From IMG/VR virus record IMGVR_UViG_3300042465_002820, positions 1 to 32,268 of that record: DNA of 32,268 nt, one strand, 5' to 3'. Shown piece by piece: positions 3,001 through 31,106 of the stretch. The translations under genes and the position numbers were made by a program. Within the stretch, counting starts at the first letter, position 1; each line of letters starts with the position of its first letter. The DNA is from a virus. The notes beneath the pieces are model-generated. The model saw only the letters and a program-made list of their open reading frames with translations. It was not told the DNA's origin and ran no database searches.

Positions 3001-6000
3001 CTGTTCCTGTTCCTGTTCCTGTTCCTGTTGCAATAAACAATTCTCCGACAGTATTACTTTTTGCACCTATACTGACGAAGTTAGTATTTCCAACTACTTT
3101 AATAATATATTGTCTTCCGATTTTAAAATTTCCGGCGACGGTTTCAGGTATAGCTTTTAATTCAATTGCAGTATAATATCCGTCTTCCGACACTAGACGA
3201 TAATCAACATTTCGAGTTAATATTTTGTTATCGGCAACGATGTGTAGTATAGTTTCTTTACCAGCACTATGACTAATAACATTCAAACTCATGCTTAATG
3301 GAACAGTTAAATCGGAGCCAACAGTTTTAACTGTTTCCGTATAATTAATGCTGTTGCCCCAGCCCAGCATGTTACTGTGATACCAAAAGTTCTCATTATT
3401 AGTTTGATTTAAAAAGATATTACTAACTGCTAAATTTAAAATATCTAAACTAGACATAATAGATGTGTTATTTTTATCAATGACTTGTTGGAGTTCGAAT
3501 GTTAACTTATTTAAAAATGAGTCGTAGTGCTTGCCTTGTTTAATAATGATTTCACTGAAGTCATATGGCAAGTTGGTTGCAACAATTGCCGCTTTTGCCA
3601 ATGGGCTATTATGTTTTAATAATGTGCCACCGCCCATGCCAGAGACAATCAACGAAGGATCAGTTTGCAATGCTTCTTTTGCATTTGAAGCATTCGACTT
3701 TAAATTAATTGTATGTTGATACAATGAATAATAATTAATAACGTCGAGTTTAGCATTCAACGGATTTGTAGTTAAACTCAACGGAGCTGTTTTACTCACT
3801 GGATCTGACAGCACAGTATCCAAACAAATCTTATCTCCGTATTTTGATTTTTGATTTAATATAGGTGTAGAAATTAATTGCTGATAATAACTTAATGAAC
3901 CATCTTCTTGAGTTATATCGCTGATAGTATAATCGTAGCTTTCATAAACTGGATTAGTTTTGTCTCGTAGATAAGCAAATTGCAAAAATCTCCATTTATT
4001 TACAGGACGAATAATCGCGGATTTAGTTATATTGTTAGCAGTCCAGAATAATCTAGTAGTGTCTATGTTTAATATATTATCGATATAATTAGAATCTTCT
4101 AAAATGCTAGGGGACAGATCTAATTCGATGACACCATTGCTTACACTGTTATTAAAACAATATGGTTCTTCTAATAATACGGATCGAGAAATATTATCTA
4201 TTACTTCTGTTCGATAAAAAGTTATTGGGTAAGGTAAATCATGACAAACTATTTTAAAATTGCTGCCAGATATCAAAGGCATGACTTGTTCAAGATTGTG
4301 AAATCCTCTTTTACTAGAAAATCTAATTAAACCGTGCCCTTGCACATTAAAATAGAATTTTAACTTTTCTGTTTCATCATAAAATATATGAATAGTATTA
4401 AATCCGTCAGCAGTGGGGATTATCTCTTCGCTCCACTGAGTTTCTGTATTATCATCGTAGAACAAATCCTGTGTTTGTTTTGTGATATCCAAACCTCGTC
4501 GAGGCTGATAAAATGATATTGCATAATAAGAAGATGACAAATATTTGTAGCCAAACGGCCCTTTAATTTGTATTTCTTCCCCTGTAGTTTCTTCATTATA
4601 AGAAAATGTTTTATCTATGTCAGTTGTAAATTTTATTTGATTGGGACTAATGTTCAGTGAATTATTTTCATTGATTATATCAAAGTCAATGCTACTAACT
4701 TGTACGCTTCTGTCCAAGGTATAATCATAAACCGGACCCGAAGCAAAGTCGAGAATAACCCCGCCTTTATAATCAATTTCATTAAATGTTTCTAAGTGAA
4801 CGTCATTGCTAGTATAAAATTCAAATCTAGGGCATTGATTTTTTGTTGTTTTATTCTGTGCAAACTGCCATCTGTTATTTTTATAAATTAATCTATAGTA
4901 CTTAATATTAGAATTAGCAACAACTAAAGCACCATCACCTGTTACAGTCGTGGTTGTTTGTACAAAACTTGCATTTGTCCCGGGATTGGAAACTGTATAA
5001 ATTCCATTACTATTTTCAAATACTAGTCTGTCACCGTTGACCAATGTGTAACCATACAAATCTTTGATACCGGCTTTTCCTGTATAATCTGAAACTTCTC
5101 CTGTTAACATAGTTGCAACTGTAGTCTTAATATTATTAGGCCAGTTATATAATTTTGTATATCTATTAAACGTAATAATAGGACGTTTTGCTTTATTTGC
5201 TTCTGTTACAATGTTACTAACTGACGTATCTAAAAAATCTGCTACAGTTTTAATTAAATTAATATGGTACCAGTGATCGATTACACCCCAATGATTTTCA
5301 TTAGCGATATATTTGTCCATGGTTATATATTCTGGCTCTGAAGTAACAATTTGACTTCCGTCCCATAGTTCGCTGTCCCACTTAATTGCAGGAGCATCTA
5401 CAAGCGGAGAATCTTTGTCCCATGGACGCTTTTTAAGATAGCTATTAGGAATTCTCTTATCAATGTTTGTTGTCCTTAAAAGTCCAATATTTTCGCCTAC
5501 ACCTATAACAAAATATGTTTTGAGTTCTTCATCTAATGCTTTGCCGGTACCGGTGCCTGGACCCTTTGCAGTAAACGAAGTTCCTGCAGAAGGCTGAGTA
5601 TATATTGTAGTCAAGCTAACTGTTTGACTAATGTTAATATTATATCTACCTTTGCCGCCTATAGTTTCTCCTGCTTGAAGAGGTAGTACTTGATCAACAA
5701 TATGCGTTCCTGGTGCTATTCCTTGTCCGACAATGAAATTTCCTGACTTTAAAATTTGTTCTCCAATAAAATCGGTGTTGTCTTCTGAGTAATCTGTGAA
5801 CTCGTTAAAGAATTTTGTAATAGTTAAAGTAGTCCCTATTATCGAACCAGTAGACTTAGAATTTGGTCGGGCGCCGATTGCTATAAAGTTTGTATTTCCT
5901 AATTCAGAAATTTCATATTGTTTTCCTACAACAAAATTTCCTGCATTAATTTCATTAAAAGTTTTATATGCAGAATCAACAAAGCCAGTGAAGTAAACAA

Positions 6001-10644: not shown

Positions 10645-10672
10645 AAAAAAGGCACATAAAGTGCCTTTTTTT
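10645..10672. terminator. Bidirectional rho-independent terminator
   Basis: A6-GGCAC-ATAAA-GTGCC-T7: a 5-bp GC-rich stem extended by A/T pairs, with U runs on either strand. On the minus strand it ends the HNH transcript, whose TAA stop (10671-10673) overlaps it, and so isolates the wedge operon downstream. Confidence 0.9.
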
Positions 10673-11210
10673 ATCCTGTCGCTATAAGTTTATCGTTATA
10701 GCCCAGATACTCTGCCCACGCAGGATCCCGCATTTGATAAGGGTTATATTGTTTGACAACTTTGACCATTTGCCAGTAGTTTGGCTCTTTAGGCTTAGTC
10801 TTTGGCTCGATGGCTTTAGCACCTTTAAGCCAATTACAAGTACCACAGCAAGTGACTAAGTTACTCCATGAACTATCTCCACCTTTACTTTTTGGCTTGA
10901 CATGATCCAGGGTTAAATCTTTAGCTTGAAACTGATCTCCGCAATACTGACAAGTATAGTTGTCACGCAAATAAACCATTTTTCGATTAAACAATACTTT
11001 ATGTTTTGGTCTCACATAACGTCTAGTCATAATGATACTTGGCACAGGAATTGCCAGTTTTTGACTGTGAACTACCCAATCGTCGTACTCTTTGACCACA
11101 CTAACTTTGTTTAGAAAAACAAGTTTAATAGCCATAGTCCAATCCACAACGCTGGGAGGTAACATAGATAGCGGAGTGCCGTCGCTGTTTAGTAATAGTG
11201 TATCACTCAT
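10671..11210 (-). CDS. HNH endonuclease
   Basis: 179 aa. A zinc/beta-beta-alpha-metal HNH nuclease is seen in the middle: CQYC (C87, C90), LTLDHVKPKSKGG with D102-H103, SNLVTCCGTCN with N117, C122, C125 and N126, then KG. The first 75 residues (LNSDGTPLSMLPPS, DWTMAIKLVFLNKV, RRYVRPK) match a type common in bacteria and phages as a free-standing HNH protein. It probably cuts or nicks double-stranded DNA. The target is not predictable, and homing, packaging or host-DNA roles are all possible. It sits alone between two terminated units with its own consensus promoter. Only a weak ribosome site is visible. Confidence 0.92.
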   Translation of the reverse strand: MSDTLLLNSDGTPLSMLPPSVVDWTMAIKLVFLNKVSVVKEYDDWVVHSQKLAIPVPSIIMTRRYVRPKHKVLFNRKMVYLRDNYTCQYCGDQFQAKDLTLDHVKPKSKGGDSSWSNLVTCCGTCNWLKGAKAIEPKTKPKEPNYWQMVKVVKQYNPYQMRDPAWAEYLGYNDKLIATG

Positions 11211-15290: not shown

Positions 15291-15489
15291 AACTTATAAC
15301 AGAGACGATCCTGGATTTCATTTTAGTCCGGATAATATTATGCTGGTAGCTAGAGCAGGCCTTAAAATTGATACAAATTGTCCTAGAGAATATAAGATGA
15401 TCATTGTCGAATGTATCAATAATGGATGGTTGCAGCCTGTGGCTTATCAACCCGTACACGAACACTTTATGGAAGAACTAACAAAATGA
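15259..15489 (+). CDS. Conserved-type hypothetical protein, 76 aa
   Basis: Start at ATG 15259 inside the end of the preceding small gene. The core ARAGLKIDTNCPREYKMII, then VECINNGWLQPVAY, is, from memory, typical of a small protein in T4-like cyanophages, function unknown. The stop overlaps the MazG-like start (ATGA). A possible promoter (TTGATA, 17 nt, TATAAG at 15391-15396) lies within it. Confidence 0.72.
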   Translation: MFTTNSSLKYKTYNRDDPGFHFSPDNIMLVARAGLKIDTNCPREYKMIIVECINNGWLQPVAYQPVHEHFMEELTK

Positions 15490-15854
15490 CAAACCCTTTT
15501 AAAGACCAAGAACGATTTATGCTTGCCTGTGATCAGACAGTAGGCGAGTTTAATCAAAAACAATATAATTTATATCGAGATCTTATTTCCGAAGAATCTA
15601 CAGAGCTCAATGCCGCTGTGGTACAAGGTGATAGGGTAGAAGAACTTGATGCTCTTATTGATATTCTAGTTGTTACTATCGGTGCCATTCATAGTTTTGG
15701 TGCTGATGGTGAAGCGGCATGGAAAGAAGTTATGAAAACAAACTTTGCTAAAATTGATTCAGATTCTGGTAAGGTTCGCAAGCGAGAAGATGGCAAAGTT
15801 CTCAAGCCTGAAGGCTGGACTGCACCAGCATTGGCGCAGTTCTTAAAAAATTAA
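15486..15854 (+). CDS. MazG-like nucleotide pyrophosphohydrolase
   Basis: 122 aa from ATG 15486, which overlaps the previous stop. An upstream in-frame ATG at 15426 lies inside that gene. All-alpha NTP pyrophosphohydrolase (MazG / PRA-PH clan): the metal-binding EExxE is EESTE in LYRDLISEESTELNAAV, and the ExxD partner helix is EELDALIDILVVTIGAI. The tail WKEVMKTNFAKIDSDSGK followed by a GWTAP segment is typical of the phage forms. It would hydrolyse (d)NTPs or related nucleotides to monophosphates, either for housekeeping or to alter the host's alarmone state. The substrate is unproven. It converges with gp5, and the two stop codons share bases in TTAA. Confidence 0.85.
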   Translation: MTNPFKDQERFMLACDQTVGEFNQKQYNLYRDLISEESTELNAAVVQGDRVEELDALIDILVVTIGAIHSFGADGEAAWKEVMKTNFAKIDSDSGKVRKREDGKVLKPEGWTAPALAQFLKN

Positions 15855-18043: not shown

Positions 18044-20971
18044 TTAAATTCTTCCTCTTTTTGATTTTTTAGTAATGTAATCACTGGCTGTTCCTTTCCA
18101 ATCATTGGGTAACAATAATCTATCCTGACCTTGATTGCCATTTGACGGCACACCTATGCCAAAGTTGTAGTACTCTGTGGTTGCCTTAACACCATCATTG
18201 AATGTTTCGTACTTATTATAAGTTCCAGTTTTGACATCGAATCCTAGACCACTAGGATTATTAACGGCGGCTGGGCCTGGACGCTGAGTATTATTACGTT
18301 TCCAATCTTCTAATCCTCCGCTGCCACTTTTTTGTAGTGCTTCTGCTGTCAGTGTTTCTGCTGGGTACGGTTTATAATTGGAAATGCCTGCATCAGCATA
18401 TGCTTCTGCTGATAACTTATTAGTATATTCAAAGTGAGCTTTAGTTTCTGCGATATACTGCTCTTTTGCCTTTGAGTATGCCATGTCTTTAGTTACTTGT
18501 GGCGGCGTTTCTGTTAAGGATTGTGCATTTACAACCGGGTCATTTACAACTGGGGGTGGATTATTTGCAATTTTTTCTCTATAACGATTTAAAGCAGTTA
18601 GTACAGGCCCAGACGAGTTGTTAGCATCACCGCGAACAACACCAGCGGCTCCCATACCTTCTTTACCGGATAAATTATCTCTGGCAGCATCGCCATTTCG
18701 TTCTCGTTTTGCCTGTTCTCTTAATTCGGCAACTTTGTCTGCTTCCCTTACATCACTGTTTATTGCACTTGTCATAAACTGTTCAAATGTAACTTCACCT
18801 ACTACTCCCTTGGGCAGTATATAACTAGGTATAGTAAGATCTTTTCTTGCTTTTAATTTCTGAGTCCACTTACCTTCTTTAAAACTATTTGTCACTGACC
18901 AAACTTGGTAGATTCCAAGAATTTGATCTGTGGTATTAAACAGCATTGTGTCATTGCTGTCCCAGTCTGTCGTAGGAGCTTGACTATTAAAATAAAATAA
19001 GTTGGCACCTTTATAAAATTGTGCTTGGCCATAGTCGCCCCATGCATTGACCCTTGTTCCCCAGTCTGGATCTAAACTTGGCATTTTGTCTTCGATCAAT
19101 GTTTTAATTTGTTCGTCATTGCTACTGGAAAACTCTATTTTGTCTAACTGGTCTTTACCCACTAACATAGCGTTGGGCATTCCTAACCAATAAGGATCTG
19201 CTATTATTTCCAACTCCATGTCGATCAAATCTCTCGGCGCTAACAACACAGTAAAGATTTTTTCCATGAGCTTTTCGTTTTCTGCTTTTGCAATATCTAT
19301 GTCTTCTCCGATTACATCTGGTTCCATTCTAGGTCTTAGACTAGAATAATTAACAGATAAAATTTCATTGTAAATTTTCTTAAAGTCCACGTCTTCTGCA
19401 AACTTTGGAGCCATTGTTTCTAATAACTCAGTTCTGTTATTAATGGAATTGGTAGGCAGTCCAGCTTTTTCTTTTGCTCTCAACACATTTTCTTTTTCAA
19501 GTATGGCTGCATTGATTGTTTGTATGTATTGTTCTAATGCTGCCTTTCTTGCTTTGTTTGAACCTTTTCTGTTTATTTCAGCAGAAGCTACTATTGCACT
19601 TTGTTGTAGTTCCTTAAGTTCTTTTCTAGCAACACCATTTTTGTCATTTTGAACATAAGGAGTAACATCTTTTCTATAGTTTTGTACATTCATTGCTCCT
19701 GGTCCGGTGGTTCCTCGATCTGTCCATATCACTGGAAAACTAGGCAAACTATAACTTTGATTAAACTGTAGATCTACTTTAATAATATCTGTACTCAAGC
19801 CGGTGTAGTTATGATAATACACTTTTCGCAGTAATCCTTCTTGAATATAATATCTCAGCTTGCTAATAACTTTGTCTTTGCTTGATTGTCTATTCAATAA
19901 ATCAAGTTCGTCAGGATACTGATACATGTTTGGTTGATCAGCCAAGAATATTAAAAAGACATGTTTAACTGCGTAACGTCCTCGAATATAGTCAAAGTTT
20001 TTATTAACAGTATAGGTTTCGATTCTAAAAAATTGATATGGTTTACCCATGTTATCTTCAATGATTTTTTTATTAGCTTCACTGCTGCCGCTGGCGCCCT
20101 GCTTTTGTCCTTCTTTTTTGCCGGGCATTAAATCGGAAACTTCTTTAGTACTCATTAACACTCTATTAATCCAAGAAATAATAGTTGTGCCCGGACGAGC
20201 AGTAATATCCCATTTTTGTTTTCCTATTCCAAAGCGAGATAAAAAAGATTCCTTTACTGCCGGATCTGCTTTGCCTTTACTTGTAAACGTAAAATTTTCC
20301 ACGTCGGGCTGTACAAGGAAATGGTACTCGTCGTGAAATGGATCTGTTTCGGCAGGGTGTGCTCCGCCACCATTACCTCCGGTGCCTGCTTTTTGTCGTG
20401 CTTCAGCGTATCTGAATTCTTTGTTTTCTAATTCAATGCTAAGTTGTTCGAAGAATTCTTTGACATTCTCTACTTGAATCTTAGTAGTATCTTTAATTGG
20501 CTGTACCAAATCCGTTTGACTGTGATGATTTGCATGAATGAACTTTAATACATACTCACTGCCTTTTTCACTGACACTGCTTTTAACGTCTGTGCTTATC
20601 AACATAATAGGCCAAACGTATTTAAAAGGACTGTCTATGCCAGTTTCGCTGATAAAATCTTCAGCAAGTATTTCTATCTCTAACAAGAATCTTGCATCTA
20701 AATGATTATCACAGCCTACTTCAAAAGCGGCAGCTCTTATATAATCAAAGAATGTAAAACCCATGGGTTCGAAGATTTTTAAATCTCCGTAGCCATTGTA
20801 TGCTACACTTGTTTGGAAGTTAGGACTTACTAAGTTATCCCAATTAATTTCCCCCATGACAAATCTACCAGTGGCCGCAGTTTCTGAAATAACTACACCT
20901 AACCTAGGATCTAATTTGTTTACGTTTTGTGGATTAACAATGGTTAATCTCGAATAATATGTATGTGCCAT
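18044..20971 (-). CDS. Large baseplate hub protein (gp27/gpD-like position)
   Basis: 975 aa. It lies between the M23 peptidase and gp5, where contractile-tail phages encode the hub on which the spike sits (T4 gp27, 391 aa). Support from sequence: RLTIVNPQNV at the start, and near residue 700 ILGIYQVWSVTNSFKEG, then WTQKLKARKDLTIPSY, the type of ending seen in gpD/gp27 hubs (a 'Y-V-h-x-V-x-H-x-F ... L-x-x-R' strand pair). A Gly-rich linker lies near 205-213. The last 220 residues are an added, low-complexity to globular tail; NPSGLGFDVKTGTYNKYETF resembles motifs in phage murein-binding proteins. The hub role is inferred from position and these patterns. Overlaps the upstream gene by one base (TAATG). 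Confidence 0.68.
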   Translation of the reverse strand: MAHTYYSRLTIVNPQNVNKLDPRLGVVISETAATGRFVMGEINWDNLVSPNFQTSVAYNGYGDLKIFEPMGFTFFDYIRAAAFEVGCDNHLDARFLLEIEILAEDFISETGIDSPFKYVWPIMLISTDVKSSVSEKGSEYVLKFIHANHHSQTDLVQPIKDTTKIQVENVKEFFEQLSIELENKEFRYAEARQKAGTGGNGGGAHPAETDPFHDEYHFLVQPDVENFTFTSKGKADPAVKESFLSRFGIGKQKWDITARPGTTIISWINRVLMSTKEVSDLMPGKKEGQKQGASGSSEANKKIIEDNMGKPYQFFRIETYTVNKNFDYIRGRYAVKHVFLIFLADQPNMYQYPDELDLLNRQSSKDKVISKLRYYIQEGLLRKVYYHNYTGLSTDIIKVDLQFNQSYSLPSFPVIWTDRGTTGPGAMNVQNYRKDVTPYVQNDKNGVARKELKELQQSAIVASAEINRKGSNKARKAALEQYIQTINAAILEKENVLRAKEKAGLPTNSINNRTELLETMAPKFAEDVDFKKIYNEILSVNYSSLRPRMEPDVIGEDIDIAKAENEKLMEKIFTVLLAPRDLIDMELEIIADPYWLGMPNAMLVGKDQLDKIEFSSSNDEQIKTLIEDKMPSLDPDWGTRVNAWGDYGQAQFYKGANLFYFNSQAPTTDWDSNDTMLFNTTDQILGIYQVWSVTNSFKEGKWTQKLKARKDLTIPSYILPKGVVGEVTFEQFMTSAINSDVREADKVAELREQAKRERNGDAARDNLSGKEGMGAAGVVRGDANNSSGPVLTALNRYREKIANNPPPVVNDPVVNAQSLTETPPQVTKDMAYSKAKEQYIAETKAHFEYTNKLSAEAYADAGISNYKPYPAETLTAEALQKSGSGGLEDWKRNNTQRPGPAAVNNPSGLGFDVKTGTYNKYETFNDGVKATTEYYNFGIGVPSNGNQGQDRLLLPNDWKGTASDYITKKSKRGRI

Positions 20972-21594
20972 TACTTGTCGCCTAATTTCAATAAAGGATT
21001 TATTAATATACCAACATCCGATTTTGTTGGTCGAGGTCTTTTAGTACCACCCGGCCCTGTTTTATTTTTTTCTTGTTCGTTTTTCTTAACGGCATCGTTG
21101 ATAACCGAATCATCTGGCGCAGTAGGTTTAGTAGTAGGTTTCCCGGGTCTGTTTTTTTCAACTTTTGCTGTGCTTGTCAATAAATCTCCGGAGCCTTTTT
21201 CAAAAGTAGCAATTCCTGCATCGTTCTTTGGATCAATGGGAACTCCATTTTTTCTAACTTCGTAATGAACGTGTGGTTGTTCATTGGCGCCAGTTGCCCC
21301 GCTATATCCTATCAATGATCCGGATGGTATTGTTTGACCAACTTTATAGCCTCCGGGATTGTTATCATCTAAGTGTCCGAACACATATTCTTTACTAGGA
21401 TCATTGGGGTCTTTTACATATAATGCTTTGCCATATCCCAATTTTCCAGTGTCAATTACCCTAGATACTTTTAAATCTTGATTAGCATATATCGGACTGC
21501 CTACTCCTGCGCGAAGGTCGATACCTTTGTGATCGCCACTGCACGTCGGGCAAGGTGGTTTTCTTTTTCCAAAACCGGATGTAATCACTGCCAT
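20971..21594 (-). CDS. M23-family zinc metallopeptidase (virion-associated murein endopeptidase)
   Basis: 207 aa. All M23 landmarks are present: GDHKGIDLRAGVGSPIYA with H22 and D26 as zinc ligands, VFGHLD (H74), and PHVHYEVR with H108 and H110. G-x-x-I-P-S-G-x-L-I-G-x-S-G precedes the HxH as usual. It would cut peptide cross-bridges of peptidoglycan. The C-terminal 70 residues are Lys/Pro/Thr-rich and end NPLLKLGDK, likely a tether. There is no signal peptide, and it is embedded in the hub operon by TAATG overlaps on both sides. It is therefore probably a tail-tip enzyme used at infection rather than a secreted lysin. Confidence 0.92.
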   Translation of the reverse strand: MAVITSGFGKRKPPCPTCSGDHKGIDLRAGVGSPIYANQDLKVSRVIDTGKLGYGKALYVKDPNDPSKEYVFGHLDDNNPGGYKVGQTIPSGSLIGYSGATGANEQPHVHYEVRKNGVPIDPKNDAGIATFEKGSGDLLTSTAKVEKNRPGKPTTKPTAPDDSVINDAVKKNEQEKNKTGPGGTKRPRPTKSDVGILINPLLKLGDK

Positions 21595-24563: not shown

Positions 24564-26339
24564 ATGATTAAATTAAAATCTCTAACAGTTAAAAACTTTC
24601 TCAGCGTAGGCAATGTAACCCAAGCACTAAAATTTGATCAACACGGTCTCACACTAGTATTGGGTAATAACTTGGACTTGGGTGGTGATGGTAGTCGCAA
24701 CGGCACTGGCAAGACTACTATTGTCAATGCACTGAGCTATGTCTTATACGGCAATGCATTAACTAACATTCGCAAAGATAACTTAATTAATAAAACTAAC
24801 AGCAAAAGTATGTTAGTTACCTGCGAGTTTGACTGCGAAGGACATAGTTATCGTATTGAACGTGGACGCAAGCCAAACGTACTTCGTTTCATTGTCGACG
24901 ACAAAGAAACCGACAACCTTGAAACAGAAGAACAACAGGGCGAGAACAAAGAAACACAGGCAGACATTGAACGCATACTTGGCATGGGCCATGATATGTT
25001 CAAGCACATTGTTGCACTCAACACTTACACAGAGCCGTTCCTTAGTTTAAAGACCAATGATCAAAGAGATATCATTGAACAGTTGTTGGGTATTACTCAG
25101 CTCAGTGAAAAAGCAACATTGCTTAAAGATTTAATAAAGAACACTAAAGATGCAGTCAAAGAAGAAGAATATAGAATCAAAGCCATCGGGGACGCTAATA
25201 CTAAAATTAAAACGTCTATCGAAGATTTGGAACGTCGTAGTCGTTTATGGCAGACAAAACAAACGGACGATTTAGAAAAACTTGCTGCCAGTATCAATGA
25301 ACTAATGAACATTGACATTGCCATTGAACTAGAGAATCACAAGGCTCTTGCGTTGTGGCAGGCCAATGAAAAAGAACTTAAACGTCATAATAAAGATTTA
25401 GCTACACATCAAAGTACTATCAAAATCTTAAAAAGTAATTTATTGAAATTGGAAAGTGCTAAAACTAAAGCCGAAGCACATCAATGCCATGCTTGCGGGC
25501 AAGACATACATGACACTAAGCAAGAAGAAATGATGACGGAGATAGACGGTGCTGTTAACAATCTTAAAGAAGATTTAGTTGAAGAAGAAACTGCTTTGTC
25601 TAAAGTCACAGAAGATATCGCTAGCCTAGGTAAACTAGGTACAGCACCCGCAGTTCGTTATAGTAATATTGATGATGCTGTTAATCATAAGAGTACATTA
25701 GAAACAGCACAGGATCAATTTGAGCGCAGAGCATTAGATCTTGATCCTTATGTTGAACAAGCAGAGCATTTGAAGACCAGTGCTTTGGAAGAACTTAACT
25801 TTGACAGTATCAACAGACTAACAAAGTTAAATGAACATCAAGAGTTTTTGCTTAAACTGTTGACCAGTAAAGATAGTTTTATTCGTAAGCGTATTATTGA
25901 ACAGAATTTGAGTTACTTGAATCATAGATTAGCACATTATCTTGAAAAGTTAAGTTTACCGCATGAAGTAAAATTCCGCAGTGACTTAGAAGTAGATATT
26001 ACACAGCTTGGACAAGAGTTTGACTTTGATAACTTGAGTCGAGGTGAACGTAATAGACTTATTTTAGGCTTGTCGTGGGCATTCCGAGATGTCTACGAAA
26101 GTCTAAATAGGCCAATCAATTTGTTGTTCATCGACGAAATGATTGACAGTGGTATGGACGCCAATGGTGTTGATAACAGTTTGGGTATTCTTAAAAAGAT
26201 GGCTAGAGAAAATCGGAAGAATATCTTCTTGATCAGCCACCGCGATGAACTGGTCGGGCGTGTAAATAACATACTACAAGTAGTAAAAGAGAATGGCTTT
26301 ACAACATTCAATACAGATATAGAAATGGTAGAAGCATAA
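24564..26339 (+). CDS. 46: Recombination nuclease ATPase subunit gp46 (SbcC/Rad50-like)
   Basis: 591 aa (T4 gp46 is 560). Walker A is GSRNGTGKTT (residues 43-52, K50). A long coiled coil follows, interrupted by a zinc hook CHAC (C308, C311) at the apex, then the returning coil, signature LSRGERNRL near 490, Walker B LLFIDEMIDSGMD near 520 and the H-loop SHRDEL. Partner of gp47: ATP binding opens and closes the nuclease and the hook dimerises two complexes. It has its own promoter inside gp47. The stop overlaps the acyl carrier gene (TAATG). Confidence 0.96.
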   Translation: MIKLKSLTVKNFLSVGNVTQALKFDQHGLTLVLGNNLDLGGDGSRNGTGKTTIVNALSYVLYGNALTNIRKDNLINKTNSKSMLVTCEFDCEGHSYRIERGRKPNVLRFIVDDKETDNLETEEQQGENKETQADIERILGMGHDMFKHIVALNTYTEPFLSLKTNDQRDIIEQLLGITQLSEKATLLKDLIKNTKDAVKEEEYRIKAIGDANTKIKTSIEDLERRSRLWQTKQTDDLEKLAASINELMNIDIAIELENHKALALWQANEKELKRHNKDLATHQSTIKILKSNLLKLESAKTKAEAHQCHACGQDIHDTKQEEMMTEIDGAVNNLKEDLVEEETALSKVTEDIASLGKLGTAPAVRYSNIDDAVNHKSTLETAQDQFERRALDLDPYVEQAEHLKTSALEELNFDSINRLTKLNEHQEFLLKLLTSKDSFIRKRIIEQNLSYLNHRLAHYLEKLSLPHEVKFRSDLEVDITQLGQEFDFDNLSRGERNRLILGLSWAFRDVYESLNRPINLLFIDEMIDSGMDANGVDNSLGILKKMARENRKNIFLISHRDELVGRVNNILQVVKENGFTTFNTDIEMVEA

Positions 26340-26569
26340 TGACAATAGAATCAAAAGCACTCGATGCTATTAAAAAAGCCTGCGAAAAAACAGACGACGA
26401 AATTATTAATGCAACATCGTGGTCTGAATTAAATTTTGATAGCTTACAGACTGTAGAATTAATCATGCAAATGGAAGATCTATTTGATCTTACCATCGAA
26501 GACGAAGATGCAGAAAAATTAAAAAATTACAACGATTTAATAACTTTTATAAAAGGGAAAACAAAATGA
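26339..26569 (+). CDS. Acyl carrier protein
   Basis: 76 aa, the usual ACP length (E. coli AcpP is 78 aa), acidic and helical. The phosphopantetheine site is present: ELNFDSLQTVELIMQMED with D34-S35-L36, Ser35 being the expected attachment residue. Helix III ends with DAEKLKNYNDLITFIK, as in true ACPs. It would carry acyl chains as thioesters after modification by a host AcpS/Sfp-type transferase; none is seen in this window. The stop and start overlap both neighbours (TAATG, ATGA), so it is made with the recombination genes. Its role is unknown: it may feed or divert host lipid synthesis, or bind a host protein. Confidence 0.85.
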   Translation: MTIESKALDAIKKACEKTDDEIINATSWSELNFDSLQTVELIMQMEDLFDLTIEDEDAEKLKNYNDLITFIKGKTK

Positions 26570-26780: not shown

Positions 26781-27209
26781 ATGACATGGCTTTACCAAGG
26801 TGATTTAATAGAAGAACTTCCTGAGGACTGTGTTGGTTTTGTTTATCTCATTACCAACTCAGTCACAGGCCGCAAATACATAGGCAAAAAATTGGCAAAG
26901 TTTGCAAAGACAAGTTACAAAGTTGTCAAGCAAAAAAATGGCATTAAAAAGAAAAAGAAAATTCGTTCAAAAGTCGATTCTGACTGGAGAGATTACTACG
27001 GGAGTAGTGATGAATTATCTAAAGACGTTACCACACTAGGCAAAGAAAATTTCACTCGTGAAGTTTTACACTACTGCACATCCAAGGCTCATACTTCATA
27101 CTTAGAAGCAAAAGAACAATTCGATAGAAAAGTTTTAGAAACAACAGATTACTACAATGGCCAAATATCCGTTCGCGTCCACGGATCACATATCATAAAC
27201 AGAATTTAA
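26781..27209 (+). CDS. GIY-YIG endonuclease
   Basis: 142 aa. The catalytic module is at the N-terminus: GFVYLITNSVTGRKYIGKK, with GFVY (19-22) for GIY and KYIG (32-35) for YIG. Then comes a Lys-rich segment (VKQKNGIKKKKKIRSK), WRDYYGSSDEL, and ENFTREVLHYC with LEAKEQF, where the Glu of the second half is expected. The tail has no obvious DNA-recognition domain (no NUMOD or zinc finger). The size matches the short Seg-like or repair-type GIY-YIG proteins of T4-like phages. It may be a free-standing homing nuclease or a phage DNA-processing enzyme. It is followed by a 520-bp region that appears to encode RNA. Confidence 0.88.
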   Translation: MTWLYQGDLIEELPEDCVGFVYLITNSVTGRKYIGKKLAKFAKTSYKVVKQKNGIKKKKKIRSKVDSDWRDYYGSSDELSKDVTTLGKENFTREVLHYCTSKAHTSYLEAKEQFDRKVLETTDYYNGQISVRVHGSHIINRI

Positions 27210-27732: not shown

Positions 27733-27960
27733 TTAAATCATTTCTTGTGTTAATGTATCTTTTGGTTTAATGCCTCGATCTAGGCTTATCTTATCTTTGA
27801 GTATTTTAAGGAATATCTTCTTCTCTTCAAATGTAATATTCCATAGGTCATTATAACTCTGTCCTGAGTATATAGCCAATGTTGCAATATCTTCTATTAT
27901 GGCTTTTGATTCCTTGTCTAAAGAGTTTAAGAACTTTAGAATGTCTGGCCCAGACTTCAA
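27733..27960 (-). CDS. Frameshift extension of the gp26-family protein (putative tail assembly chaperone part)
   Basis: 75 codons in the -1 frame relative to the gp26-family gene. The only available start is TTG 27960, with no ribosome site. The frame is open back through CGC ATA AGG CTT TTA TCC to the T TTT TTC heptamer at 27984-27978, just before the upstream stop. It is thus most simply expressed as a -1 frameshift fusion of about 359 aa. Sequence: LKSGPDILKFLNSLDKES, AIIEDIATLAIYSGQSYNDL, WNITFEEKKIFLKILKDK, all helical. The D-L-W-x-I-T-x-E-E segment recalls short downstream parts of tail chaperones. A separate small protein from TTG remains possible. Confidence 0.65.
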   Translation of the reverse strand: MKSGPDILKFLNSLDKESKAIIEDIATLAIYSGQSYNDLWNITFEEKKIFLKILKDKISLDRGIKPKDTLTQEMI

Positions 27961-27971
27961 GGATAAAAGCC

Positions 27972-28811
27972 TTATGCGAAAAAAGTCGTTGGATTAAGGT
28001 CTAAACTAGATTTAAATTCGGTGTTGCAATTTTTACAACTCACACTAAATTCTTTATCCACACCCATTGTACTGGTCATCATTATAGATAATTCAATTTT
28101 TGAAAAATCATTTTTGCTGAGATCGTTGATCCAGTCTTTGATGTTTGCATTATCAGTTACAGCTACTCCGTCTGGTAATAACACAGTGTCTATACAGCTA
28201 CTGACAATTTCTATGTTTTTTTCAGTTAAAATTTGATAACTTCGTTGCATTAAATTTACTTTAGTTGCTTCGTCTGCATTATTTTGTTCTGCAAGTTGTA
28301 TATTTCTAATCTGTTCAAACTGTACCCAATTTAAGTTCAATAAATTTTGCACAGTAACTGGTTTGATAAAAATTTTAATTCCATTATCTAATTCAACAGG
28401 CTCTAATTTTTCAACAGTTTTTATACTGCTGATAATTTGATTTAAGTTTATACTCACTTCGTTGGCAGTTTCGCAGGCAGTGCATTTACAATTAACATCT
28501 AAATTATCACCATACGTACAACGCTTGATACCAACTAAAACAGCATCTAAGTCAATGGCCGGCATGGACATGGGATCAGTGATTGAAGGAACACAGCTAT
28601 TAATCATTTGAGTTATTGCGCTGCCGTTTAGTAAAGCATCTGCGTTTTTAAGCATTAGCTCATCTTTGGCGGTCAGTGGATAAATTGGGATCTCACCCAT
28701 TTCGTTAAACTCTGTGGGTTTTTCTTTATAAAAGTTTCCTTGGCTGGGCAACTTAATCCATATTCCAGGCTTTCTAAAATATTGTTTTAACGGGTTGACT
28801 TGGTTTTCCAT
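27972..28811 (-). CDS. 26: gp26-family baseplate/tail assembly protein (T4_baseplate family)
   Basis: 279 aa (T4 gp26 is 208). N-terminal family pattern: FRKPGIWIKLPSQGNFY, then GEIPIYPLTAKDELMLKNAD and a Cys-containing helix (ITQMINSCVPSI). Cysteines C108, C110, C113 and C259, C262 (CKCTAC and CKNC) could bind zinc, an addition to the T4 protein. gp26 is needed for T4 hub assembly, yet I recall that it is not resolved in the mature baseplate, which suits an assembly role. GGAG-type ribosome site before ATG 28811. Lies back to back with the tape measure. Ends in a slippery heptamer two codons before its stop. Confidence 0.8.
   Translation of the reverse strand: MENQVNPLKQYFRKPGIWIKLPSQGNFYKEKPTEFNEMGEIPIYPLTAKDELMLKNADALLNGSAITQMINSCVPSITDPMSMPAIDLDAVLVGIKRCTYGDNLDVNCKCTACETANEVSINLNQIISSIKTVEKLEPVELDNGIKIFIKPVTVQNLLNLNWVQFEQIRNIQLAEQNNADEATKVNLMQRSYQILTEKNIEIVSSCIDTVLLPDGVAVTDNANIKDWINDLSKNDFSKIELSIMMTSTMGVDKEFSVSCKNCNTEFKSSLDLNPTTFFA
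27978..27984 (-). other. Predicted -1 frameshift site T TTT TTC
   Basis: In the gp26-family frame the message reads ACT TTT TTC GCA TAA. The heptamer T TTT TTC fits X XXY YYZ and allows both tRNAs to slip back one base, entering the open -1 frame (CGC ATA AGG ...) of the downstream ORF. The stop codon six bases later and the hairpins beyond the ORF are the only other visible elements. Confidence 0.65.
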
Positions 28812-28868: not shown

Positions 28869-31106
28869 ATGGCAGATCCAATTAAAGTCTACGGAACAAT
28901 AAATCAAGCGACCTCTGGCTTCGAGTTCTCTCTTGACGGCATGGCTAGTTACAGCCAAATGAAGAAGTTGTTGGCAGTAACTGAATCTATGGCTAAAAAA
29001 ATGGGAGCAGATGCCACTGGCCCTAGTAAAGAAGAAAAAGAAGAAGTAGATTTACTTAAAGATAAAAACAAACAGACTAAGCAGTCTATTGATCTTGAAG
29101 AAGAACAACAAAAAAGATCCAATGAACTTGATAAAAAGTTTAGAGATTTAAGCAGGACTTCATCCTTTCTTCAAGGTAATTTAAGTGCCGCTGGCACAGG
29201 ATACACAACAGGTTTAACATTATTAACCACTGGAGTAGGAACATTACTGGGTGCTTTGTCTGGATATGCTGACCAACTGCAACTGGGTTTACAACGAGGT
29301 ATCAGTGGCGGAGTAATGGATTTTGCTATTGCTGCCAAAACAGGCGGTGTTAGTCTAGGATCATTTTCCAAAGCATTGGAAGAAAGTGGCGGCGCATTTG
29401 CCAGTCTGGGCGATGGAGCAACCAACGGTGCTAAGAACTTTGGATCATTAATTGGTAGTGTTAGAACAGCTACAGCAAGCGTAGGCAATCTAGGATTAAG
29501 CAACGATCAATTGGCATTGCTTACAGCACAACAGGTCAAGGTAGCTGTTTCACAGGGTTTTAAAGGCACTGCTGCTCAAAATGTTGTAATTAATAACACT
29601 CGTGCATTGGCTAAAGAATTAGATATACTGGCAAATCAAACTGGTAAGAGTGTGTTAGAAATGACTCAGGCCGCGGTAAAATTAGCACAAGATCCGTTAG
29701 TAAGTAGCTTTGTTAGAGATATTAAAACGGGCGGAGCAGATGCCGCCAAAGCATTAAATTCATATGCCGCCAACTTTACTGCATTGTTTGGCAAAGAAGG
29801 AGATAAACTAGCACGTGATACTATTGGTCCTGCACTGTCCGGACTGCCTATGATTATCAATGACACGGGTAAAAACCTAGCATTGGCCAGTCAAAGCACA
29901 TACAATGAAATAGATAGACTAGCCCAAAAAGCTCGCAGTGGCGAAGCAATGACCGATGAAGATAGACAGCGTTTATCCGAAACAATTAAAAAAGAAGTTG
30001 CACAGCGTGGCCAAGAACTTCGATACATGTCTGAACTAGGTGGGCCAATGGGCGAAAGTGCTAAACAGTTTCTGTCATTGGCACAGGAAGTTGAAAACTA
30101 TAATAGTGCCGCAGGTGAGCAACGTAGAAAAGAAGACAAAGCCGCACAAGAGTTTAATACGGCAATGAATCAGTTTAAAGCAAATTTACAAGCTCTTGCA
30201 ATACCATTCTTGAATTTAATCAACGGTATTGATTGGACAGTTTTCATTAATACTCTCAGTGCATTTGCTTCAGGGTTAGGTACTGTATTACATTTACTTG
30301 ATCCAATTGGTAAATTTTTAGGTATGGGTCCAGGCGGATTAATAGGTGCAATACTAGGCTTAGTGGCAGTTATAGCTATAGGAAAAACTGGATATGGCTT
30401 ATTGAATAAATCAGTGACATCTATGGCAGCTACTTTTACAGAATCGGCTGCAAAAATTAAATTAGCTGCCGACAGACTTTTAGGCATTGGTGCATCTGGA
30501 AAACTAGGAAAGAAAGCACAGTCTGCTAGCCTAGCTACTGCAATTACATTAGACTCGGTAAGTAGTCCGTCTACAAGCAAAATTGGCAAAGGTATAGCCA
30601 AAGCAGGATTAGCTGGCGGCCTTGGTGGTATGATGGGCGGGGGCCTAGGCCAAATGGGCGGTGAATATGCTACAGAGAAACTGGGTCAAGAAAAAAACTC
30701 AGGCGGCGCAATTGGTGGAACAACAGGTGCATTAGCCGGTGGCATTGCAGGCGCAGCAATCGCCGGAGGATTAACAGTTGGCACAGCTGGGCTTGGCGCA
30801 TTTGTTGCACCTGCAATTGTCACAGGCATGTCAGCACTGGGGGGTTTTCTGGGTAATGTTGTCGGTAATACAATAGGAGATTGGATGAGTGATGATTCGT
30901 CTAGTCTAGCAGAAACAGACATGGCAGCAGTTGATCAAAGTAACCAATATCAGCAGGCCAGCTTGAAACAAGGTCAACAATTAAACGCCAAAATTGATGC
31001 GCTAAATGAAAATATGGGATATGGTAATAGTATAAGTGCCAGGGGTGTAGCAGTTGCAGAAACAGGTAATAGACAATTAGCCAACTTACAATACGGTAAT
31101 GCTTAA
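28869..31106 (+). CDS. Tape measure protein (gp29 role)
   Basis: 745 aa (T4 gp29 is 590). Charged coiled coil at about 55-115 (KEEKEEVDLLKDKNKQTKQ, LEEEQQKRSNELDKKF). Long helical Ala/Gly/Lys-rich middle. Hydrophobic segments near 120-145 (GLTLLTTGVGTLLGALSG) and 490-507 (GLIGAILGLVAVIAIGKTG). Gly/Ala-rich membrane-type C-terminal stretch about 595-690 (GAIGGTTGALAGGIAGAAIA). This combination, with a tail-assembly gene beside it, marks a tape measure, which sets tail length and may form a channel in the inner membrane. The 0.15 nm-per-residue rule would suggest a tail of roughly 110 nm (inference). Start: ATG 28869, no ribosome site, late box adjacent. Confidence 0.82.
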   Translation: MADPIKVYGTINQATSGFEFSLDGMASYSQMKKLLAVTESMAKKMGADATGPSKEEKEEVDLLKDKNKQTKQSIDLEEEQQKRSNELDKKFRDLSRTSSFLQGNLSAAGTGYTTGLTLLTTGVGTLLGALSGYADQLQLGLQRGISGGVMDFAIAAKTGGVSLGSFSKALEESGGAFASLGDGATNGAKNFGSLIGSVRTATASVGNLGLSNDQLALLTAQQVKVAVSQGFKGTAAQNVVINNTRALAKELDILANQTGKSVLEMTQAAVKLAQDPLVSSFVRDIKTGGADAAKALNSYAANFTALFGKEGDKLARDTIGPALSGLPMIINDTGKNLALASQSTYNEIDRLAQKARSGEAMTDEDRQRLSETIKKEVAQRGQELRYMSELGGPMGESAKQFLSLAQEVENYNSAAGEQRRKEDKAAQEFNTAMNQFKANLQALAIPFLNLINGIDWTVFINTLSAFASGLGTVLHLLDPIGKFLGMGPGGLIGAILGLVAVIAIGKTGYGLLNKSVTSMAATFTESAAKIKLAADRLLGIGASGKLGKKAQSASLATAITLDSVSSPSTSKIGKGIAKAGLAGGLGGMMGGGLGQMGGEYATEKLGQEKNSGGAIGGTTGALAGGIAGAAIAGGLTVGTAGLGAFVAPAIVTGMSALGGFLGNVVGNTIGDWMSDDSSSLAETDMAAVDQSNQYQQASLKQGQQLNAKIDALNENMGYGNSISARGVAVAETGNRQLANLQYGNA

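Follow-up and report, generated by a model that had tools for sequence, protein, structure and literature searches.

A probable programmed -1 frameshift predicted to yield short and long tail assembly chaperones from the gp26-family gene of a T4-like jumbo phage

The tail assembly chaperones gpG/gpGT of phage lambda and gpE/E+E' of phage P2 are produced as a short form and a frameshifted long form, and they are encoded beside the tape measure gene. The corresponding chaperones of T4-like phages are reportedly the subject of a study published by Vladimirov, Gautam and Davidson in 2022. According to the pertinent part of the PRFect paper, some T4-like phages employ a short gene together with a longer fusion gene instead of frameshifting (PMC10885494, citing Vladimirov et al. 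2022), and the pertinent part of the Adele paper treats poly-T slippery sequences as a known feature of T4-like TAC-N genes (PMC12846349, citing the same study). A conserved -1 frameshift at a poly-T site, resembling the one described here, is reported in the latter excerpt for Pseudomonas phage Adele and other Vandenendeviridae, in which the downstream ORF is usually annotated as a separate hypothetical gene, whereas the Adele chaperone differs in stemming from another phage family and in its motif GTTTTT (PMC12846349). Since both papers, in these parts, cite Vladimirov et al. 2022 for the T4-like cases, the principle is in print already.

The present analysis concerns the window, i.e., the whole stretch of 32,268 nucleotides of viral DNA that was analysed (IMG/VR record IMGVR_UViG_3300042465_002820), and in particular a gp26-family gene on its minus strand (Table 1), which belongs to the same family as T4 gp26 and gp51 (PF12322, phrog_150). 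The gene terminates with ACT TTT TTC GCA TAA, where T TTT TTC stands in the X XXY YYZ register of frame 0 and is separated from the stop codon by a single sense codon (GCA). From the heptamer onward, the -1 frame is open up to a stop codon at 27733-27735 and its 81 codons read FF|RIRLLSLKSGPDILKFL..., which confirms in the window sequence both the heptamer and the open frame that the original prediction had placed behind this gene. A run of 81 open codons arose in 0.2% of 20,000 trials under an order-1 Markov model of the downstream 400 nt. Among the 19 window genes checked, which are a subset of the ORFs of the window, T TTT TTC or T TTT TTT occurs in frame in the gp26-family gene alone, and a second gene (15426-15854) carries an X XXY YYZ heptamer, AAAAAAT, near its stop. 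The 75-codon ORF listed within the extension does begin at a TTG, as had been stated; the accompanying claim that it lacks a ribosome site stands insofar as no AGGAGG is present, and it has to be amended by an AAGG located nine bases 5' of the TTG (by eye).

Table 1. Features of the gp26-family locus in the window
Feature	Coordinates	Strand	Basis
gp26-family gene, short form, 279 aa	27972..28811	-	PF12322, phrog_150, model and BFVD matches
Putative slippery heptamer T TTT TTC, frame 0	27978..27984	-	Sequence; T TTT TTC or T TTT TTT in 41 of 41 loci and in 80 of 80 (the best 80 of at least 598)
-1 frame extension, 81 codons and stop, predicted C-terminal part of the long form	27733..27978	-	Open frame; third-position substitutions; related to cyanophage gp51
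TTG, would-be start of the 75-codon ORF	27958..27960	-	CTG in L002 and L012; TTA in L003-L008
745-aa divergent neighbour, probable tape measure or virion structural protein	28869..31106	+	phrog_14121, position, annotation of relatives

The main support for the putative slip site of the window is its conservation in relatives. A set of 41 window-type and jumbo loci was assembled from the window, 24 IMG/VR loci (searched with single proteins as queries) and 16 of 62 matching phage records, several of the loci being near-identical (L013-L017 share the same site region). In all 41 the heptamer stands in frame at the C-terminal Phe-Phe, T TTT TTT taking the place of T TTT TTC in RAS14 and XacN1, and the -1 frame is open in every one, including that of a 595-kb uncultured phage (L040), whose extension was omitted from alignments A5 and A6. 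The frame-0 tail past the heptamer varies from 1 to 21 codons, which is the outcome anticipated when an alignment of homologous loci was originally suggested, namely that the heptamer and the -1 frame are kept while the intervening bases drift. The motif FFRxxLL opens the -1 frame in 24 of the 41 loci. Within the window clade, all pairwise comparisons of nine loci over the first 33 codons of the -1 frame gave 194, 102 and 469 changes at codon positions 1, 2 and 3, respectively, and 278 synonymous vs 268 non-synonymous codon changes; the third-position excess is the pattern expected for a coding frame. The comparison of loci, cyanophage-type ones included, lends strong support to a -1 frameshift that would connect the gp26-family gene with the small ORF.

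A similar arrangement is encountered in cyanophages, whose gp26 and small gp51 genes follow the gene order of the window (S-PM2, S-SCSM1) and which, like the window, possess T TTT TTC close to the gp26 stop, with a -1 extension behind it (the best 80 of at least 598 IMG/VR loci; S-PM2). Within this cyanophage-type sample, i.e., the best 80 of at least 598 IMG/VR matches, T TTT TTC and an open -1 frame were both found in 80 of 80 loci, the frame being open to the contig end in L051, L105 and L122. The small ORF is annotated in the isolates S-SCSM1 and S-PM2 as gp51, 'baseplate hub assembly catalyst', with an internal start, and both of the two cyanophage small ORFs tested fall into phrog_634. 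Cyanophages differ from the window in a shorter extension, in a covarying hairpin and in a -1 frame that is closed in the S-SCSM1 record. T TTT TTC recurs in seven out of ten additional isolates (S-SCSM1, Bakedbeans, S-PM2, Ci1, BUCT608, Ah1 and K567) and is absent from Cygsa01, D495 and Kevin. Of the seven carriers, six have an open -1 frame, whereas that of S-SCSM1 ends after four residues. In the S-SCSM1 record (L042, around 3688-3700), the extension is found in frame +1, as would follow from a gain of bases between the two, which may represent either a real change or a sequence error.

The cyanophage hairpin consists of five pairs, lies 10 nt 3' of the heptamer and is intact in 44 of 74 distinct sites, which were obtained from the best 80 of at least 598 loci after removal of six identical over 30 nt. 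Across these 74 sites, 86.5% of the cells pair, and 43 cells were changed on both sides against a shuffle mean of 9.7, a value reached in 0 of 500 shuffles; at most 10 such cells were observed when the partner was slid. S-PM2 displays a 14-bp hairpin nine nt 3' of the heptamer (spacing counted by hand) with a z of -7.6. A stimulatory hairpin was likewise sought in the window clade, where the structures predicted were rejected as candidates, as the window (z 0.13) and L003 (z -0.02) fold no better than their shuffles and none stands out. In Atu_ph07 (L025), an 11-bp hairpin at 4856-4881 follows 18 nt after the heptamer, with a z of -3.4 vs shuffles, and it is a possible stimulator in one jumbo lineage.

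Whereas the window possesses one gene with a slip site, T4 has two genes for two forms. The C-terminus of T4 gp26 reads KEFFELL and no heptamer is present there, in agreement with the original statement that T4 lacks the frameshift, and the paralogue gp51 carries the extension in frame; gene 26 and gene 25 overlap by one base, and the gp51 gene is divergent and adjoins that of gp26. T4 gp51 matches PF12322 (E 3.9e-52) and, with its C-terminus, phrog_634 (E 1.2e-23). A profile of the -1 extension matched the C-terminus of gp51 in T4 (2.8e-6) and phiAS4 (1.4e-7) in a three-sequence test, and hhalign aligned the cyanophage extension with the gp51 C-terminus at P 1e-6 (probability 91%) and the jumbo extension with the cyanophage extension at P 6e-4 (probability 28%). 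The jumbo extension matched gp51 directly at P 0.018 with a probability of 2.5%, and since this direct match is weak, the link from jumbo phages to gp51 is drawn through the cyanophages and the gene order.

PF12322 was detected in 29 of 29 records: T4 and phiAS4 hold two copies each and the remaining 27 a single copy. Three of these 27 come from IMG/VR and are possibly fragments; L038 and L040 lie outside this copy count. Two PF12322 genes and a slip site never occur together in these 29 records, T4 and phiAS4 being devoid of the site. The model of a T-even-type gp51 (pLDDT 80.6, about 50-63 over the last 49 residues) matches gp51 as well as gp26 proteins, and gp51 is essential in T4 according to the relevant part of a review (PMC3004832). 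The best explanation of these data is that the short form of T4 is gp26 and the long form its separate paralogue gp51. The gp51 alignment A4 omitted L128 and L134; in L134, a T4-like IMG/VR genome, the gp51 relative beginning at 2501 is interrupted after 120 codons, possibly by a sequence error.

The family assignment of the window gene is secured by PF12322 (E 1.5e-20, 74.3 bits vs a curated cut-off of 24.5) and phrog_150, 'baseplate hub' (E 1.3e-27). Its predicted model (pLDDT 88.6) matches T4-like hub assembly proteins in BFVD at E 2.9e-25 to 7.0e-24 and TM 0.86-0.89 by query length. Foldseek returned no PDB match to this model at E <= 0.001, and no relative worth trusting emerged from PDB profile searches. 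The tail assembly chaperone of HK97 (2ob9) appeared at rank 25, aligned over 100 of its 107 residues with Z 6.5 and rmsd 5.1; unrelated chains score equally, and this match is at most suggestive. PA5oct gp26 matched phrog_15960, 'tail assembly chaperone', weakly (E 0.011). For the window extension, no family in Pfam and PHROG was obtained at a trustworthy E-value, and no PHROG family matched those of Atu_ph07 and PA5oct; the extensions of L030, L031 and L033 match phrog_18291, 'unknown function'. The phrog_18291 profile starts at about residue 13-14 of the jumbo extension, as if it had been built from an internal start.

The gp26-family gene adjoins the 745-aa neighbour back to back on opposite strands, which departs from lambda and P2 in that the gene and the probable tape measure gene do not share a strand. 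This neighbour matches phrog_14121, 'virion structural protein' (E 3.4e-6), and the next gene is that of a T4-like portal (PF07230, E 1.4e-79); the gp26 neighbour is annotated as similar to tail tape measure protein in RaK2 and is a structural protein by mass spectrometry in PA5oct. It is probably a tape measure or other virion protein, the tape measure identity being suggested by position and annotation. Elsewhere in the window, a plus-strand gene at 26339-26569 encodes a 76-residue acyl-carrier-protein-like product (PF00550 PP-binding, E 5e-8), whose location beside a phage gp46-like recombination gene is unusual. Two homing-type endonuclease genes, SegE-like GIY-YIG at 26781-27209 on the plus strand (PF19835, E 2.9e-33) and HNH at 10671-11210 on the minus strand (PF14279, E 3.6e-15), were recorded as well, together with an M23-family peptidase gene (20971-21594, minus strand; PF01551, E 1.8e-19) amid baseplate genes.

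Judged by sequence comparison and by analogy with described systems, a programmed -1 frameshift very probably provides this T4-like jumbo phage with short and long tail assembly chaperones. The majority of ribosomes would terminate at the gp26 stop to give the 279-residue short form, while a minority would shift one base backward at T TTT TTC to translate 81 more codons, so that the long form would consist of gp26 and a small C-terminal domain. Both forms may cover the tape measure protein and recruit tube subunits to it, as lambda gpG/gpGT would suggest; the likeness to lambda and P2 lies in the organisation, that is, in putative short and long forms encoded beside a probable tape measure gene. 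The compared sequences themselves establish a candidate slip site, a -1 frame that stays open and is conserved, a small ORF devoid of any conserved start, and a relationship to T4 gp26 and gp51. Slippage, its rate and the chaperone action are what we infer from the lambda, P2 and T4 literature.

Three other readings were weighed against programmed frameshifting to chaperones. It is quite unlikely that the small ORF gives rise to a separate protein by termination-reinitiation, with a coupled start at or just past the gp26 stop, a reading to which the separate annotation of the small ORF as gp51 in cyanophage records lends itself. In 10 of the 41 loci, window included, a start codon does occur among the 12 codons that open the -1 frame, and in several of the ten it overlaps the gp26 stop, where coupling could add a separate small protein. 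Against this reading, the first 12 codons of the -1 frame contain no ATG, GTG or TTG in 31 of 41 loci and none exists anywhere in the 73 codons of PA5oct, the TTG of the window is replaced by CTG or TTA in close relatives (Table 1), and the heptamer is preserved at the nucleotide level. Homologues combining an own start for the small ORF with loss of the heptamer, which the original prediction had named as evidence to the contrary, were absent from the 41 loci and from the best 80 of at least 598 cyanophage-type loci, and they were met with only in the distant relatives Cygsa01 and D495, both with a TAATG start; termination-reinitiation may add to frameshifting or, in some lineages, replace it.

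That the heptamer merely represents ordinary codons for a conserved Phe-Phe, with no programmed slippage, is highly improbable, even if the Phe-Phe is conserved in the protein also in T4 (EFFELL) and T-ending codons are common in these genes (0.33-0.67 for the residues concerned). The codon preceding TTT TTY has T as its third base in all 121 loci (the 41 and the best 80 of at least 598 cyanophage-type loci), eight different residues being encoded, whereas the other Phe-Phe pairs of the same genes show T TTT TTC in 0 of 83 and T TTT TTT in 1 of 83 cases, 79 of these pairs lying in cyanophage-type loci (among the best 80 of at least 598 matches) and four in jumbo isolates; moreover, from the heptamer onward the -1 frame stays open and is conserved. 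It also appears unlikely that the frameshift is real and gp26 acts as a structural hub subunit, with the long form as a minor virion component rather than a chaperone. This reading draws on the 'baseplate hub' annotation in many records and on genetic work placing gp26 in the hub, as recounted in the consulted part of a review, whose table nevertheless gives gp26 and gp51 as hub assembly chaperones (PMC3004832); the T4-like tail assembly chaperones are, moreover, a short gene and a longer fusion gene according to papers citing Vladimirov et al. 2022, in their pertinent parts (PMC10885494).

The preferred reading, programmed frameshifting to two chaperone forms, invites an evolutionary scenario that we regard as somewhat more probable than its alternatives taken together. 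T TTT TTC would be ancestral to T4-like phages (represented in this analysis by jumbo, cyanophage, Vibrio, Aeromonas, Citrobacter and Stenotrophomonas lineages) and aided by the covarying hairpin in cyanophages; the T-evens would have swapped the frameshift for gene duplication with an in-frame extension (gp51), and a few lineages would have moved to a TAATG-coupled separate extension. The unification of the gp26 family with other tail chaperones, as originally put forward, retains its frameshift component, which the comparison supports, and finds no support for its novelty, an outline being in print in the portions of two papers cited here (PMC10885494, PMC12846349), and this partial prior publication limits the surprise. 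The open-access literature searched yielded no description of the jumbo-phage gp26 frameshift or of the cyanophage hairpin. The breadth including jumbo phages, the covarying cyanophage hairpin and the one-vs-two gene count may be additional to Vladimirov et al. 2022.

On the reading preferred here, T4, the best studied contractile phage, would fit the general rule of two-form tail chaperones. The frameshift would likewise explain the shortness of cyanophage gp51, as well as the jumbo records in which the ORF behind gp26 is unannotated or started inside. If the site is indeed ancestral, one locus would offer three interchangeable routes to the same extension, and the small cyanophage 'gp51' would correspond to the latter half of a frameshift product. 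The frameshift of most lineages vs the two genes of T4 would constitute a natural replacement experiment.
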